From positions 5,580,001-5,644,000 of the forward strand of contig NZ_CP051680.1 in assembly GCF_012849095.1 (NCBI RefSeq): a stretch of DNA of 64,000 nucleotides, in the 5' to 3' direction. The notes below the pieces were generated by a model, which did not search any database, was not told the DNA's origin, and saw only the letters and a program-made list of their open reading frames with translations. Positions 4,167 through 55,310 of the stretch are shown piece after piece. Numbering within the stretch: position 1 is the stretch's first letter; every line of letters starts with the position of its first letter. Position numbers and translations under genes: made by a program. Source of the stretch: Cohnella herbarum (GTDB taxonomy: Bacteria; Bacillota; Bacilli; Paenibacillales; Paenibacillaceae).

Positions 4167-4366
4167 CGCGCCACAAAGGCAAGCTCTATATTGTTAGGCA
4201 ATCCCTTCGCACCGAATGATCTGATGACCCTAAAGTTTGGCGCCACATATACCCATTGTTCAGCTATCTATAGAAATTTTCCCCTGTTCTCCCATAAACT
4301 CAGTTGCCGCATATTCGCTCCCGATGCAAACAATACCGATACCTATTACTCGGGAGGTATCCATTC

Positions 4367-5602
4367 ATGACAATTTTGCGAAGTTTAGGCAAGCAAATTT
4401 GGACGACCGCCTTAATCGCATCTTTGGTGCTCGCGATAAACGGATGTACGGATGCGGACCACTTGAAATCGAACGATAAGCGCATCGAAAATAAGATAAT
4501 CCCCAAATCCTCCGACAAAATCGAACCTCGTGCTCTATCCGACAAGGATTATCGTTCCTTAAGCCAAGCGGACGACAGTCGTCCGGCTTCGGTGATGAGC
4601 ATCCAAAAACCGGTACGCGCGATCTATGTGACTTCCTACGTGGCCAACGGAAGCCGAATGGGCCAGTTGATCGACCTAGTCAATCAGACGGAGTTGAACG
4701 CGATGGTACTGGATATTAACAGCGGGATCTCCCTCTCCTCCCCCGTGCTTACCGGGAAGAAAAAATCCTATGTTATGCCGGTGCTGTCGAACAAGAAGTC
4801 GGCGCTGCGTTTTCGCGAAGTCGTCAAGCAATTAAAAAAACAAAATATCTATCTCATCGCAAGAATCGTTACGTTCAAGAATCCAACTTTGGTTTACGCA
4901 AAACCCGAATGGGCGCTGAAAAAGAAAAACGGTAAAGTCTGGACGGACCGCAATGGAACGCCGTGGATCGATCCCTATCGTGAGGAGGCTTGGGAGTATC
5001 CGCTCGCCTTGGCGGAGATGGCGGCAAAGATCGGGTTCGATGAAATTCAATACGATTATGTGAGGTTCCCGGAAAACGGTTCGAAAGTCGATCGCGAAGT
5101 TGCGTACGCTAATAAGTCAGGTTGGACGAAAAGCGAGGCGATTCACAAGTTCCTGCACCGAGCGAATCTGAGAGCCCATAAGCATGGCGTGAAAGTCTCC
5201 GCGGACGTGTTCGGTATGGTTGGTTCCTCGGATGACGATATGGGAATCGGTCAGAAATGGGACTCGATCGTGACGGAGGTTGATGTCATCTCTCCGATGA
5301 TCTATCCGTCGCACTATTCGGAGGGAATGTGGGGAGTCAATCATCCGGATCTGCGGCCTGGAGCCATTGTTGCCCGAGCTCTGAAAGATACAGTAAAGCA
5401 TAATCAGAAATTGAACGAGCAAGGAATCGCGACCGCGAAGGTTCGTCCTTGGCTGCAAGGCTTCACGGCAGGTTGGGTACATCCTCATCAGAAATACGGG
5501 GAAGCTCAAATTCGCGAGCAAATAGTAGCCGCGCGCAAGGCCGGATTTAACTCCTACATGATTTGGAATTCGGCAAACCGCTACCCCAAATTTACTACCT
5601 GA
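4367..5602 (+). CDS. Lipoprotein, putative glycoside hydrolase (DUF4015 type)
   Basis: 411 residues. The start is ATG 4367, placed 9 nt after CGGGAGGT; a further-upstream in-frame ATG has no ribosome site. A hydrophobic N-terminus ends in LAINGC, a lipobox with Cys27, so it is probably a membrane-anchored exported protein. From about residue 82 to the end the protein looks like a TIM-barrel glycosidase-like domain of the DUF4015 family: VRAIYVTSYV at its start, the DEIQYDYVRFP block in the middle and SYMIWNSANRYP at the C-terminus. Family members are predicted polysaccharide or cell-wall glycosidases, but their substrate is unknown. It stands alone between the palindrome array and guaB. Confidence 0.85.
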   Translation: MTILRSLGKQIWTTALIASLVLAINGCTDADHLKSNDKRIENKIIPKSSDKIEPRALSDKDYRSLSQADDSRPASVMSIQKPVRAIYVTSYVANGSRMGQLIDLVNQTELNAMVLDINSGISLSSPVLTGKKKSYVMPVLSNKKSALRFREVVKQLKKQNIYLIARIVTFKNPTLVYAKPEWALKKKNGKVWTDRNGTPWIDPYREEAWEYPLALAEMAAKIGFDEIQYDYVRFPENGSKVDREVAYANKSGWTKSEAIHKFLHRANLRAHKHGVKVSADVFGMVGSSDDDMGIGQKWDSIVTEVDVISPMIYPSHYSEGMWGVNHPDLRPGAIVARALKDTVKHNQKLNEQGIATAKVRPWLQGFTAGWVHPHQKYGEAQIREQIVAARKAGFNSYMIWNSANRYPKFTT

Positions 5603-5664
5603 GATGGATAGTATTGGATTGAAGAATGCTTATGTGATGCGGTTTCCGACGCTTTCGAATGTGC

Positions 5665-50759: not shown

Positions 50760-51137
50760 TTATAATTGAACATTCATTTGTTTAAGTCGTTGCCTCAACT
50801 CCGAAATGTAGGTTTCTGCGATATAGCAGCGCTTCGTCATGTCTTTCGGCTGTTCGTGGAAGTATAAGATTCCCCACTCCCAATCTATTCTTTTAATTTT
50901 ATGCAAATTAACGATATAAGCTTTGTCCATTCTCTCGAAGTGATTACAAGAAGTGCGCAGCAAAGCAATCAGTACTTTCATTCCATTCCATGGAAGAAGG
51001 TATGTAGAGGTGAGCGTATGCCCCACTATTTTTTTCTTCACAAGCTCGAAATAGCAAAATTCATCGATGTTTACCGAAATCAGTTGCCTGTTATGTTCAT
51101 CATCATATGTAACGTTGATCGTGCCGTTCCAAGTCAT
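50760..51137 (-). CDS. Stand-alone LytTR-domain protein 2
   Basis: 125 residues from ATG 51137, 8 nt after GGGG (ATG 51143 is too close). The whole protein is one LytTR-like DNA-binding domain: ISVNIDEFCYFE near the N-terminus, HFERMDKAYIVNLHKIKRIDWEW in the middle. No receiver domain. It is a paralogue of the next gene upstream (51258-51635), with the same N-terminal W-(N/D)-G-T start and the same CYIAE/CYIAR strand. Probable output regulator of the agr-type locus. Confidence 0.82.
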   Translation of the reverse strand: MTWNGTINVTYDDEHNRQLISVNIDEFCYFELVKKKIVGHTLTSTYLLPWNGMKVLIALLRTSCNHFERMDKAYIVNLHKIKRIDWEWGILYFHEQPKDMTKRCYIAETYISELRQRLKQMNVQL

Positions 51138-51257
51138 AGGCATAACCCCATAGTGTGAAATGGTTAGTCACAAATGATTCTGCCATTAAGGAAGATCTGG
51201 CGAATGAATCACTTTCCGGATGAAGAATAGAAGAGACGTTGCAATCGCGCAACGTCA

Positions 51258-51635
51258 CTAGCTGGATAGCTGGCTGATCCGGCGTTTCACTTCGCCGAGC
51301 TTGAGCCTAGCGATGTAACAATACTTTGATTTGTAATCAGGTGCATCGATGAAGTAGGCTTTGCACCATTCTGTATCGATCTTCCTGACTTTGGTCAAGT
51401 TAACGAGGAAAATACGATCCGTTCTGTAAAATTGCGGAGCCGTAGTTTGCAGCGCCTGCATCAGACGATCTAAGGTATCCCATCCGGCGTAATACTCTTG
51501 CTCTAACGTATGGGCCTTGATCTGGCTTTGGCTCTGATCGACGCAGAAGTACAGGATTTCGTCCGCGTTAATGGAAATAAATCCTGCACTCCCGTCCGCC
51601 TTCTCAGTCAAACTAAACGTACCGTCCCAGTTCAT
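51258..51635 (-). CDS. Stand-alone LytTR-domain protein 1
   Basis: 125 residues; ATG 51635, 9 nt after the agrD stop, with GGAG inside the end of agrD. A single LytTR-like domain: FISINADEILYF and QFYRTDRIFLVNLTKVRKIDTEW. It lacks the receiver domain of AgrA. The operon position directly after agrD suggests it takes part in, or responds to, peptide signalling; how the signal reaches it is unknown since no kinase is encoded nearby. Confidence 0.85.
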   Translation of the reverse strand: MNWDGTFSLTEKADGSAGFISINADEILYFCVDQSQSQIKAHTLEQEYYAGWDTLDRLMQALQTTAPQFYRTDRIFLVNLTKVRKIDTEWCKAYFIDAPDYKSKYCYIARLKLGEVKRRISQLSS

Positions 51636-51644
51636 TGCTTAATC

Positions 51645-51773
51645 TCAGCTCCGCTTTAACAGTTCTTGAGGGACTTTTGGTTGGTGGGCCCAAATAAAAC
51701 AAGCGGTCAATACAAAAACGGATGCAAGTGCAGCTAACAATGTCGTTACTAAATGAAGTGATTTTTTTCTCAA
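51645..51773 (-). CDS. agrD: Cyclic autoinducer peptide precursor (AgrD-like)
   Basis: 42 residues. TTG 51773 lies 6 nt after AGGAGGTG and overlaps the agrB stop (TTGA). Typical AgrD layout: basic N-terminus MRKKSL, hydrophobic amphipathic leader, then Cys25 followed by FIWA, then a charged tail HQPKVPQELLKRS. It aligns position for position with the S. aureus AgrD core (C + four residues, then DEPEVPEEL), predicting a five-residue thiolactone C-F-I-W-A; the N-terminal extension of the mature peptide is unknown. Processed by AgrB. Confidence 0.88.
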   Translation of the reverse strand: MRKKSLHLVTTLLAALASVFVLTACFIWAHQPKVPQELLKRS

Positions 51774-52294
51774 GTTTTTTCACCTCCTATTCTGATCAAA
51801 GATAGGACTTGAAGTAAAAATGATATAGCTATTATGTCTGACTGGATGAAAAAGTTGGAAGCAATCAGGATGGCAGAGACAACCTTCAATAAAGGGTAGT
51901 ATCGTCTGGGAATCCTTGATTGATTTTCAATGTTACTCGGAGCATATAGTAAAGCCAGTAGAAGGCAGAAAATTGTTAATCCGATGTTGAGAGTTGTAGA
52001 TAAATTAATATATGGAATGAGATTGGCGGTTATGGAAGTGATTAACATGCAGGCCATGCTAGAATTGAGGTGGTAACCTCCAGAAATCGCCCTTAATGCG
52101 GCGAAGGAGATCAAAGCCAAAGCTGTACCTGCAATATGATTCAATACGAAGGAAAGAGACAAGGCGAGAATAATCGTGCCGATCACATTAATGACCGCTG
52201 CGATTGAAAATTTTAGTACCTCTAAACTTGCGGGGTGCTCTGGGTTTGCTTCTTTTAGTTTAGTTGCAAGTTTGAGAGAGAGCGGCTCAATCAT
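51770..52294 (-). CDS. agrB: Accessory gene regulator protein B (AgrB)
   Basis: 174 residues; ATG 52294 overlaps the stop of the upstream sensor-like gene (ATGA). Membrane endopeptidase that cuts AgrD and forms the thiolactone. Family motif RAISGGYHLNSSMACML holds the catalytic His and, eight residues on, the Cys. The N-terminus MIEPLSLKLATKLKEANPEHPASLEVLKF is typical, followed by four to six membrane helices. An open frame extends further up but only through the sensor gene. Confidence 0.92.
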   Translation of the reverse strand: MIEPLSLKLATKLKEANPEHPASLEVLKFSIAAVINVIGTIILALSLSFVLNHIAGTALALISFAALRAISGGYHLNSSMACMLITSITANLIPYINLSTTLNIGLTIFCLLLALLYAPSNIENQSRIPRRYYPLLKVVSAILIASNFFIQSDIIAISFLLQVLSLIRIGGEKT

Positions 52295-52923
52295 AGTTCG
52301 GTACGCTCCTTCCGGATGGTCAAATACATTAAAAAGGAAAACAAGAGAGTTTCGACTATGATCCCGTAAAAAAGATCTTTTTGGAGAAATAAGAAGGCGA
52401 ATGCCCCATACGTTATGAACATGACGACTAACATCAAAGCATTGTCGCCTTTCCAACGGAATCTGTCGAAAGAAAACGTGAATCCGTATCCTTTTCTGTA
52501 GAAGTAAACACTTATTCCAAATAAAATGAGCGCAGTTGCTACTTGTAGAATATAAGCATCAAGATGATAGTTCTCGACGGATTCAAGAGTGATGAACCCA
52601 AGAGAGATGAGAGACAGCATTAGCGTAGTTTGAATGATAAAAAATATGATAATAGTCGTGCCGGATACGATGATTGCCCAAATCGGAGGCACCTTTAAGA
52701 CGGAGAATCCGAAATAGGAGTAGAATATCATTGTGAATATTGGGAAGTATGATGCCAAATCTAATTCTACTCGTGATGCATAGGATACAATAGAGAAGAG
52801 TACACAGGAAAGTATGATTTCCTTGAGATAAGGTTTATAACCAAATCGGAAAAAACAGAGCATAAGTACGCAGTATGACATAGCTTCAATCGTAGAAAAG
52901 ACCACATACCATATGAAATCCAT
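52291..52923 (-). CDS. AgrC-like membrane sensor without a kinase domain
   Basis: 210 residues from ATG 52923 after GGGAGA. Six to seven hydrophobic helices fill almost the entire chain, ending in the short charged tail TIRKERTEL. This is the layout of the sensor part of AgrC, but translation stops where the dimerisation and ATP-binding domains should begin, and the stop overlaps the agrB start, so it is not a recent truncation within an operon. First gene of the agr-type operon. A peptide receptor or a transporter helper are both possible. Confidence 0.78.
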   Translation of the reverse strand: MDFIWYVVFSTIEAMSYCVLMLCFFRFGYKPYLKEIILSCVLFSIVSYASRVELDLASYFPIFTMIFYSYFGFSVLKVPPIWAIIVSGTTIIIFFIIQTTLMLSLISLGFITLESVENYHLDAYILQVATALILFGISVYFYRKGYGFTFSFDRFRWKGDNALMLVVMFITYGAFAFLFLQKDLFYGIIVETLLFSFLMYLTIRKERTEL

Positions 52924-53476: not shown

Positions 53477-54304
53477 CTATTTTTTACCCTCATTGGCAAT
53501 CGCGGAAAGAGTAATATCATTGCTGCTATCCGCCGGCTCTAAATAATTACGCAGGATCGATACTTCTACCCGACGATTCGTTGCGCGGCCCTTATCCGTA
53601 TCGTTGCTCTCGAGAGGACGGAATTCGCCGTATCCGATCGCGCTGAAGCGCTTCGGATCGAATGCGGAATTCTCGAGCAGGATTTTCATGAAATTGATTG
53701 CCCGTTTGGAGCTGAGCTCCCAGTTGGAAGGAAACTCGTTGGTGTTAATCGGTTGGTTGTCCGTATGTCCGGTAACCAAGATTTCGTAGTCCGGATATTG
53801 CTGCAGCATCTGTCCGATGGCCGAAGCAAGCTTCTGGGATTCGGCTTTCACATTCGCGCTTCCCGAAGGGAACAACGCATTATCCCGGATCGTAATGAGG
53901 AGCTGGGATTGGTTCAACTGCGTCTCGAGCTGAGAGGAAAGTCCGTTCTTCTGAATATATTTATTGAAGTCCTTCTGAAGCTGCTCAAGATTTTGTTGCT
54001 CTTGTTGTTTAAGTTCTTCTCTGGACTTGTCTTTTCTTCCATCGTTGGCGCGAGGAAGGTCTTGATTGGTATCGCGCTTGTGTTGATCGTCTTGAGTAAT
54101 CGCGCCGTTATCCAGAATGCCAAGCCCGGAGCTGAAAGCCGTCTTGAAGGCGCGACTCATTTCCTCGAATTTGGACGTGTTGGCCGCGCTTGCCGCATAT
54201 AATACGATAAACAGGGCCAACAGCAACGTCATGAGATCGGAATAAGGAAGAAGCCATGATTCGTCCGCATGTTCCTCATGCGGCTCATGCCGTTTTCTGC
54301 TCAC
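53477..54304 (-). CDS. motB: Flagellar motor stator protein MotB
   Basis: 275 residues, GTG start after GGAGG, overlapping motA by 20 nt. One membrane helix near the N-terminus with the proton-carrying Asp in LPYSDLMTLLLALFIVLYA, a Lys/Gln-rich plug and linker (about 75-130), and a C-terminal OmpA-like peptidoglycan-binding domain (VTGHTDNQPIN, NWELSSKRAINFM, GYGEFRP, NRRVEVSIL). Anchors the stator to the wall. No other flagellar genes are in the window. Confidence 0.96.
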   Translation of the reverse strand: MSRKRHEPHEEHADESWLLPYSDLMTLLLALFIVLYAASAANTSKFEEMSRAFKTAFSSGLGILDNGAITQDDQHKRDTNQDLPRANDGRKDKSREELKQQEQQNLEQLQKDFNKYIQKNGLSSQLETQLNQSQLLITIRDNALFPSGSANVKAESQKLASAIGQMLQQYPDYEILVTGHTDNQPINTNEFPSNWELSSKRAINFMKILLENSAFDPKRFSAIGYGEFRPLESNDTDKGRATNRRVEVSILRNYLEPADSSNDITLSAIANEGKK

Positions 54305-55091
54305 GTTGCGTTTCCTCCTTCTCGGCGAACGCTAACCGCTCTGTCGGGGTCAGGAACACAAGAAGTTTCTGTTGAATGGCAATCGTCGATACCCCGGATT
54401 GAATCGAAAGCAACCCTTCGACCATCATAAGCTTAAGATCGATTTCTCGCTTGGAGAGGCGCTTTAATTTGTTGGAAATCGGATGCCATAGAACGTAACC
54501 CGTGAAGATACCTAGAAGCGTCGCGATAAATGCGGCTGCTACGGCATGGGCAAGCTTTTCCATTTCCGACAGGTTACCCAGAGCGGCGATAAGTCCGATA
54601 ACGGCTCCGAGAACCCCCAACGTCGGTGCGTACATCCCCGCTTGGGAGAAGATTTGCGCGCCGCCGCGGTGACGTTCCTCGGTTGCCGAAATATCCTCGA
54701 GCAGAACGTCGCGAACGAAGTCTTGATCGTTACCGTCGATAATCATCCGCATACCGGTTTTGAGGAACGTATCCTCGATTTCGTCCACGCGGGCTTCGAG
54801 AGCAAGCAAACCTTCACGGCGGGTAATGGTTGCCCATTCCATGAACATGCCGATGAGCTGCTGGCGCGGAAGAAGCTTAGGTTCTGCGAAGATGAGTTTG
54901 AATAACTTAGGTACTTTGGCTAGGTCCGACATGGGAAAAGCCATGAATACGGAAGCGGCGGTTCCGACGAGAATGATGACGTAAGCAGCCGGATTGTTCA
55001 CTAGACTAATAAGTGGGGCTTTCTTCAAGTACATACCGAAGACAAGCGCAACAAACCCTAAAACTAAACCAATAATCGTTGAATTTTTCAT
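54285..55091 (-). CDS. motA: Flagellar motor stator protein MotA
   Basis: 268 residues from ATG 55091 behind GGGGTG; a more upstream in-frame start has no site. Four membrane helices, the cytoplasmic loop with charged residues contacting FliG (around RREGLLALEARVDEIEDTF), and PTLGVLGAVIGLIAALGNL in helix 3 with a conserved Pro. With MotB it forms the ion channel that drives flagellar rotation. Confidence 0.96.
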   Translation of the reverse strand: MKNSTIIGLVLGFVALVFGMYLKKAPLISLVNNPAAYVIILVGTAASVFMAFPMSDLAKVPKLFKLIFAEPKLLPRQQLIGMFMEWATITRREGLLALEARVDEIEDTFLKTGMRMIIDGNDQDFVRDVLLEDISATEERHRGGAQIFSQAGMYAPTLGVLGAVIGLIAALGNLSEMEKLAHAVAAAFIATLLGIFTGYVLWHPISNKLKRLSKREIDLKLMMVEGLLSIQSGVSTIAIQQKLLVFLTPTERLAFAEKEETQREQKTA

Positions 55092-55310
55092 CGTACACCC
55101 CGGCATATGGAAGAATGATATGTACGCGACAGGAGATTACCCTCACAACCGACACGATAATAGGTTTATCGACAGAACGTAGCCAAAGCTTTAGAGGATA
55201 TCGGTGTTTTTCGTAAATTCATTGGTGTAGAATCGTGTAATAAGCATGTGCTGCGGTAAAAGACAGGGATATCCGAGAGAGAGAGTAGCCATCAAAGGAG
55301 GCGAAAGGAA

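Follow-up and report, generated by a model that had tools for sequence, protein, structure and literature searches.

How can a peptide-signaling locus of the agr type pass on its message when its sensor has no histidine kinase and its regulators have no receiver domain? The question is raised by a locus on the minus strand of a 64,000-nucleotide stretch of the Cohnella herbarum genome (assembly GCF_012849095.1, contig NZ_CP051680.1, positions 5,580,001 to 5,644,000), hereafter “the window,” whose first letter is position 1. A first-pass annotation had left three options for this locus: direct contact between the sensor and a LytTR regulator, relay through an unlinked kinase, or a peptide acting as a toxin or as a signal without phosphorylation. 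We consider it likely that the locus is a phosphorylation-free agr quorum-sensing operon whose peptide receptor acts directly on LytTR, in the manner of the LytTR regulatory systems (LRS). If the sensor does act in this way, it would be a quorum-sensing receptor without a phosphorelay, equivalent to a familiar two-component system that has been cut back at each end.

Parts of the locus and the missing phosphotransfer modules

The locus comprises the following features, with the support for each in parentheses.

52291..52923, minus strand: kinase-less sensor gene, AgrC-type input domain, 210 amino acids, ATG start (AlphaFold2, hydropathy and charge, profile matches)
51770..52294, minus strand: agrB, peptide-processing membrane protease, 174 amino acids (Pfam AgrB, 5.4e-19)
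51645..51773, minus strand: agrD, signal-peptide precursor, 42 amino acids, TTG start (TIGR04223, 7.1e-11)
51687..51701, minus strand: predicted ring peptide Cys-Phe-Ile-Trp-Ala within agrD, presumably a thiolactone (Cys at -7 before the P..P.EL box)
51258..51635, minus strand: LytTR1, stand-alone LytTR DNA-binding protein, 125 amino acids, receiver-free (Pfam LytTR, 1.7e-9)
51235..51256, minus strand: terminator-like hairpin between LytTR1 and LytTR2 (9 pairs)
50760..51143, minus strand: LytTR2, second stand-alone LytTR protein, 127 amino acids (Pfam LytTR, 2.2e-8)

The five genes named in the first-pass annotation were all recovered (open reading frame translations, Pfam, and NCBIfam), in the minus-strand order sensor, agrB, agrD, LytTR1, LytTR2, and the stop/start overlaps that it had claimed are real: The start of agrB overlaps the sensor stop (ATGA), and the start of agrD, a TTG preceded by the strong ribosome-binding site AGGAGGTG, overlaps the agrB stop (TTGA). 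The 42-codon agrD at this overlap was confirmed both by translation and by its TIGR04223 match (42 bits over a cut-off of 19). The order sensor-agrB-agrD-LytTR occurs in three further cassettes of the genome, so the locus is not a product of chance. The idea of an intact operon held in part: Coupling is tight from the sensor through LytTR1, whereas LytTR2 is set off by a gap of 114 nt and by the hairpin (51256..51235, folding at -13.9 kcal/mol, z -2.5), so that the operon is safe only up to LytTR1 and LytTR2 may be transcribed less or separately.

Pfam found no kinase in the sensor (no HATPase match; the protein stops after helix 7) and no receiver in the regulators, which consist of a LytTR domain only, in agreement with the earlier statement that both phosphotransfer modules of an agr-type locus are missing here. 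The sensor matched no Pfam or NCBIfam family above chance, and comparison of its structure with solved and viral structures yielded nothing informative. AlphaFold2 modeled it with seven helices (2-24, 30-53, 57-76, 80-107, 121-143, 159-181, and 184-209; pLDDT 93.6, pTM 0.88), and charge and hydropathy predicted an N-out/C-in topology, with the final helix ending in a predicted cytoplasmic tail where the pseudokinase relatives described below continue. The description of a membrane protein that ends where an AgrC kinase should begin was apt in that the kinase domain is absent and the end coincides with the start of the kinase-like region of those relatives; the protein is nonetheless a complete seven-helix domain. 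Among 16 database sensor proteins, 7 bear a name, which in all 7 cases is “hypothetical” or “uncharacterized.”

LytTR1 and LytTR2 are 35% identical in alignment, and a profile of the six LytTR-only proteins of the genome (these two included) matched the AgrA LytTR structure 3bs1 (3.7e-7). Of the seven LytTR matches in the genome, five belong to agr cassettes; the other two are one that follows an ABC-transporter ATPase domain (L016; L numbers are our locus labels) and one that stands alone (L015). Pfam detected a receiver domain in none of the seven, and hence no AgrA-type response regulator was found in the genome. LytTR proteins longer than 150 amino acids in our survey of relatives likewise had no receiver, one of them (L097) being a tandem LytTR. 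The doubled LytTR gene is a peculiarity of the window locus with single-chain LytTR-LytTR parallels elsewhere (L097 and viral contigs), an analogy that fits two LytTR domains per site. As a separate observation, L041 (2225-3445) carries a LytTR fused to GGDEF and to the start of an EAL domain that is cut by the stretch end, for which a cyclic-di-GMP output is possible.

All four AgrB loci of the genome (L012, L013, L014, and the window locus) read sensor-agrB-agrD-LytTR, the three other sensors being 26 to 28% identical to that of the window. The ring residue is Cys in three of the four AgrDs and Ser in one; across 104 AgrD open reading frames, the ring position was Cys at -7 in 47, Ser at -7 in 33, Cys at -8 in 7, and different in another 7, with no box found in 10. 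A search of the genome with the sensor profile returned the four cassettes only and no full-length kinase with this sensor; the full-length AgrC kinase next to an AgrA that the annotation had marked as the counter-evidence to look for was thus not found there.

Kinship with AgrC and spread among relatives

In eight AgrC-like proteins from other Bacilli families (L172 to L179; 406 to 450 amino acids), the kinase-less sensor profile matched the N-terminal stretch of ~210 residues at 1e-19 to 8e-12. Judged by this sequence homology with AgrC-like N-termini, the sensor is an AgrC-type input domain. Four of the eight loci (L172, L173, L175, and L176) have the order agrC-agrB-agrD-agrA, where AgrA is a receiver-LytTR protein of 240 to 245 amino acids (Pfam); in the remaining four, no LytTR gene was found within the stretch. 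The window operon is thus colinear with a classic agr operon from which the kinase region of the sensor and the receiver of the regulator have been taken away. From their sequences, the eight relatives themselves look like pseudokinases: In alignment with true kinases, the catalytic His of the RHDF/RHDY box is absent from all eight, a GLGL motif was seen in none (the frame of L179 ends early), and Pfam found no HATPase domain in the three that were tested (L172, L173, and L178). With the His and GLGL missing throughout, the coupling may have dropped the need for phosphotransfer before the kinase was lost. We also noted a separate kinase-like gene upstream in L174, L178, and L179.

A sensor fused to a kinase-like region was observed in Chengkuizengella marina (L017) and two relatives (L025 and L125), with HATPase_c identified by Pfam in L017. 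A receiver-GerE-like regulator (GerE below cut-off) lies upstream in L017, and a similar frame is present in L125. We detected no LytTR gene in the stretches of these three loci; among the surveyed loci, a stand-alone LytTR thus never accompanied a sensor fused to a kinase.

The survey was non-random: It comprised 29 loci from the best AgrB matches and 80 stretches picked among the matches listed, with the same genus and family taken first. Two loci enter its 120 AgrB places two times each, L105 because its AgrB frame is split and L107 because it has two AgrB genes. A kinase-less sensor together with LytTR was present at 96 of the 120 places, a kinase-less sensor without LytTR at 16, a kinase-fused sensor without LytTR at 3, and neither at 5; some loci extend less than 1.5 kb beyond AgrB and could hide a more distant LytTR. 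The search among relatives that the annotation had suggested thus shows that, at the AgrB places surveyed in the order Paenibacillales, a kinase-less sensor with LytTR is the commonest arrangement and not an oddity of one locus. Sensor and agrB genes overlapped in 95 of 107 cases. AgrB occurred in 86 of 100 genomes and the sensor profile in 82 of 100, the own genome being included in both counts. Wider samples, for which up to 7 candidates were scored per genome so that the counts are lower bounds, matched the sensor in at least 46 of 398 genomes across the class at E up to 0.001, and in at least 4 of 398 across the phylum at E up to 1e-10, all of the own family. If direct control of LytTR by the sensor is true, it would account for many agr loci in Paenibacillales.

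In a quick AgrB tree with long branches and an arbitrary root, seven pseudokinase loci formed one group (the eighth, L174, was omitted because its agrB reads as two frames), the three kinase-fused sensors fell at two places amid kinase-less ones, and the phage rows fell at three places. The rows of our alignments A5 and A6 were chosen by k-mer dissimilarity and length.

Proposed direct sensor-LytTR contact and its rivals

In the mechanism that we favor, AgrB would trim and cyclize AgrD, a step known from agr, to yield an exported five-residue ring peptide whose chemistry we presume from those systems. The seven-helix membrane protein, homologous with AgrC-type sensors, would then serve as the peptide receptor. 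As in the streptococcal LRS, its cytoplasmic face most likely holds LytTR inactive at the membrane until the peptide binds, whereupon the freed LytTR would switch on its own operon and further genes; in the window locus, LytTR2 probably contributes to the LytTR pair that such sites need. If this is true, the cassette would offer a small four-gene part for studying by what means a receptor in the membrane gates LytTR, a question general to LRS.

Co-variation was evaluated in 88 loci (94 with sensor, AgrB, and LytTR passed the length filters, and 6 near-duplicates were dropped). Operon co-inheritance feeds all of these correlations, and only contrasts between them bear on contact. Distances correlated at 0.78 from trees and 0.83 from alignment scores for sensor and LytTR, at 0.72 and 0.78 for sensor and AgrB, and at 0.63 and 0.66 for AgrB and LytTR, an order that was unchanged when column numbers were equalized. 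The partial correlation of sensor and LytTR given AgrB was 0.62 (tree) and 0.67 (alignment scores), and that of sensor and AgrB given LytTR was 0.48 and 0.55. The partial correlation of AgrB and LytTR given the sensor collapsed to 0.14 and 0.03, which makes the sensor the hub. Within the sensor, the first cytoplasmic loop (25-37) showed a partial correlation of 0.49 with LytTR and 0.02 with AgrB, and outer loops 2 and 4 leaned to AgrB.

Several observations weigh against direct control. The excess of the sensor-LytTR over the sensor-AgrB correlation is slight (bootstrap 0.005 to 0.108 for alignment scores and -0.007 to 0.121 for trees), and cytoplasmic loop 5, a large one, leans to neither LytTR nor AgrB (0.49 versus 0.45). 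The difference between inside and outside loops (0.26, bootstrap range 0.13-0.40) was matched by random splits of the same loop columns in 7 of 100 cases, so that this contrast is suggestive only. No LytTR was found near 16 of the 112 kinase-less sensors; one of these LytTR-less loci, L116, has the AgrB with the highest identity to the window AgrB in the tree set (50%). In three genomes, between three and six kinase-less sensor genes stand in tandem with no additional LytTR, an arrangement not expected if each sensor serves one regulator. L180, whose kinase box looks intact, is also a weak match to the sensor profile (1.8e-6). In 114 regions upstream of sensor genes, a scan for LRS-type repeats (9-bp windows, all spacings from 11 to 44) gave no excess at a 20-22 bp period. 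Lastly, a divergent orphan SpoOB-type kinase gene precedes 15 of the 120 cassettes, one of them in this genome (L014).

The orphan kinase lends itself to the view that an unlinked or divergent histidine kinase relays the signal, with the short membrane protein as a co-receptor and LytTR modified or controlled otherwise, and the genome does hold 20 HATPase_c_5 matches. We nevertheless find this unlikely. LytTR-only proteins have no phospho-acceptor domain, and the lack of a receiver extends to all seven LytTR proteins of the genome. The SpoOB-type kinase family had no match within 3.5 kb of the window cassette, L012, or L013 (other kinase families were not sought there), and no SpoOB-type kinase was found in the stretches read of the viral loci. 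Of the annotation's options, the unlinked kinase is weakened by the missing receivers and by the failure to find a full-length kinase with this sensor, and direct contact is the best of the three. The L014 kinase gene itself (4312-5661) has no adjoining response regulator and is followed by what we take to be a chitinase-like gene.

Immunity proteins are often small membrane proteins, and the extra sensor copies in the tandem arrays and in phages Davies and Emery would suit a bacteriocin-like toxin, with the seven-helix protein conferring immunity and LytTR regulating production. This option, which the annotation had also raised, loses ground to the homology of the sensor with AgrC-type domains and to its fusion with a kinase in Chengkuizengella and two relatives, and bacterial AgrD retains the usual box and ring position; we regard it as improbable. 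Decidedly improbable, too, is a role of the membrane protein as an AgrB accessory in maturation or export, with LytTR as an independent autoregulator. The frequent overlap of sensor and agrB genes would agree with such a role, as would the outer loops, whose partial correlations are somewhat higher with AgrB than with LytTR (0.48 versus 0.42), yet sensor-kinase fusions exist, and the sensor as a whole has a somewhat higher partial correlation with LytTR than with AgrB (0.67 versus 0.55).

A precedent of another kind is BlpS of Streptococcus gallolyticus, a LytTR-only protein in a peptide quorum-sensing locus that, in the sections of PMC8545106 considered here, competes for operators with a receiver-LytTR regulator. 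In L186 and L197, a receiver-LytTR gene follows the cassette (in L186, a kinase-like gene is present as well), and BlpS-like competition could operate there. For the window locus we hold it to be very improbable, as BlpS opposes a full two-component system, a kind not found in this genome, where no LytTR protein carries a receiver. That the locus is a decayed agr on its way out, as two missing domains relative to classic agr might suggest, has a negligible probability, being contradicted by the open frames, the start-stop overlaps, the four copies in the genome, the mobility of the set, and its wide conservation across relatives and phages.

Phage-borne cassettes and comparison with known systems

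Cassettes of this kind are also present in viruses. Four annotated phages, namely Abouo, Davies, and Emery of Brevibacillus and Harrison of Paenibacillus, each have one or two sensor genes, agrB, a small gene resembling agrD, and LytTR, located near integrase or regulator genes, with the LytTR gene annotated as hypothetical or peptidase. Pfam placed the LytTR of the four phages above the cut-off in two cases and below it in two, and a custom LytTR profile matched at 7e-19 to 3e-14; a custom AgrD profile recognized three of the four agrD-like genes, that of Harrison being missed. Among 25 IMG/VR contigs recovered through the sensor, LytTR follows agrB in 24, and the remaining contig ends too early (the 25 include Abouo itself and some near copies); agrD was recognized in 11. 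The sensor-agrB-LytTR set moves as a unit. In a search limited to relatives of the Abouo and Harrison integrases, 5 of 26 viral loci had one within the fetched stretch. Eleven of 25 viral LytTR genes encode 236 to 252 amino acids and are LytTR-like in both halves, weakly so in several and with one second half nonsignificant.

The phage AgrD-like peptides of L138, L139, L140, L192-L199, L204, L205, and L216 have no Cys at the bacterial ring position and often a Lys nearby (AKVTIG, FKFTIG), so that the ring chemistry may differ or be absent. Extra sensor copies were seen in Davies and Emery. In bacteria, the array loci L222 (9347-14000), L224, L225, and L226 lie beside or apart from a cassette, and sensor matches number 19 in genome G071 and 12 in genome G063. 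Possible roles of tandem sensor arrays are eavesdropping, decoy, or immunity.

It is quite possible, albeit short of probable, that these cassettes form a separate class of peptide signaling, in which a peptide-gated seven-helix receptor contacts LytTR directly without phosphorylation. Such a class would be related to AgrC-type proteins by way of a pseudokinase stage, would be common in Paenibacillales and in a second Bacilli family (probably Brevibacillus-like), and, in temperate phages, could inform the choice between lysis and lysogeny as arbitrium does. If the sensor acts directly on LytTR, this would suggest that temperate phages have a second means of communicating by peptides.

At the promoters, word enrichment returned promoter-like blocks (extended -10) that are conserved within cassette groups and differ between them. 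One 27-base block (up to 3 mismatches) was found four times in 36 genomes, in 4 of them, and always at the promoter of a cassette itself, whereas a reversed control gave none; in the same 36 genomes, this block search found no further target gene beyond cassette promoters. The promoter of the window cassette itself was not identified. Confinement of the block to cassette promoters fits autoregulation by a group-specific regulator, without proving it.

By its parts the cassette is agr, and by its probable working it is LRS-like. It has in common with agr (AgrBDCA; Staphylococcus, Listeria, and Clostridium) the AgrB, the AgrD motif, the AgrC-type sensor domain, the LytTR output, and the four-gene operon, and it differs in having a sensor without a histidine kinase domain and a regulator without a receiver. 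The sections of PMC6193735 consulted describe LRS (HdrRM and BrsRM) as a LytTR regulator held by a kinase-less membrane inhibitor, with a DUF3021 or DUF2154 membrane protein in four of the five Streptococcus mutans systems. LRS promoters are marked by 9-bp direct repeats at 12-bp spacing. The locus here shares with LRS an operon that pairs a LytTR-only regulator with a polytopic membrane protein lacking a kinase. Full LRS membership is opposed by the reversed order, with the membrane protein first and LytTR last where LRS have the regulator gene upstream, and by the AgrC-type partner, in which Pfam found no DUF3021 or DUF2154 at E up to 1. Unlike LRS, moreover, the cassette operon makes its own peptide signal, and the LRS direct repeats were not seen upstream of it.

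We found no earlier mention of the kinase-less form than that by Hargreaves et al. 2014 (PMC3901668), who reported AgrB, AgrD, and AgrC-like proteins without HATPase in Brevibacillus phages Davies, Emery, and Abouo; the sections of that account considered here mention no LytTR behind agrD, no mechanism, and no bacterial cassettes. Voichek et al. 2020 (PMC7425212) mention an agr-like cassette in Paenibacillus polymyxa, and phage AgrB genes are listed without discussion of signaling in the parts consulted of PMC4909266 and PMC4168068; PMC4209062 and PMC10301443 contributed nothing further. In the open-access literature searched (subscription papers and preprints lay outside it), the four-gene system with LytTR was not described, and the kinase-less form appeared only in PMC3901668.

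With no functional link to the cassette implied, we note that a motA and a motB gene lie upstream of it on the same strand at 53477-55106 (Pfam MotA_ExbB, 4.3e-30; MotB_plug, 1.4e-20).

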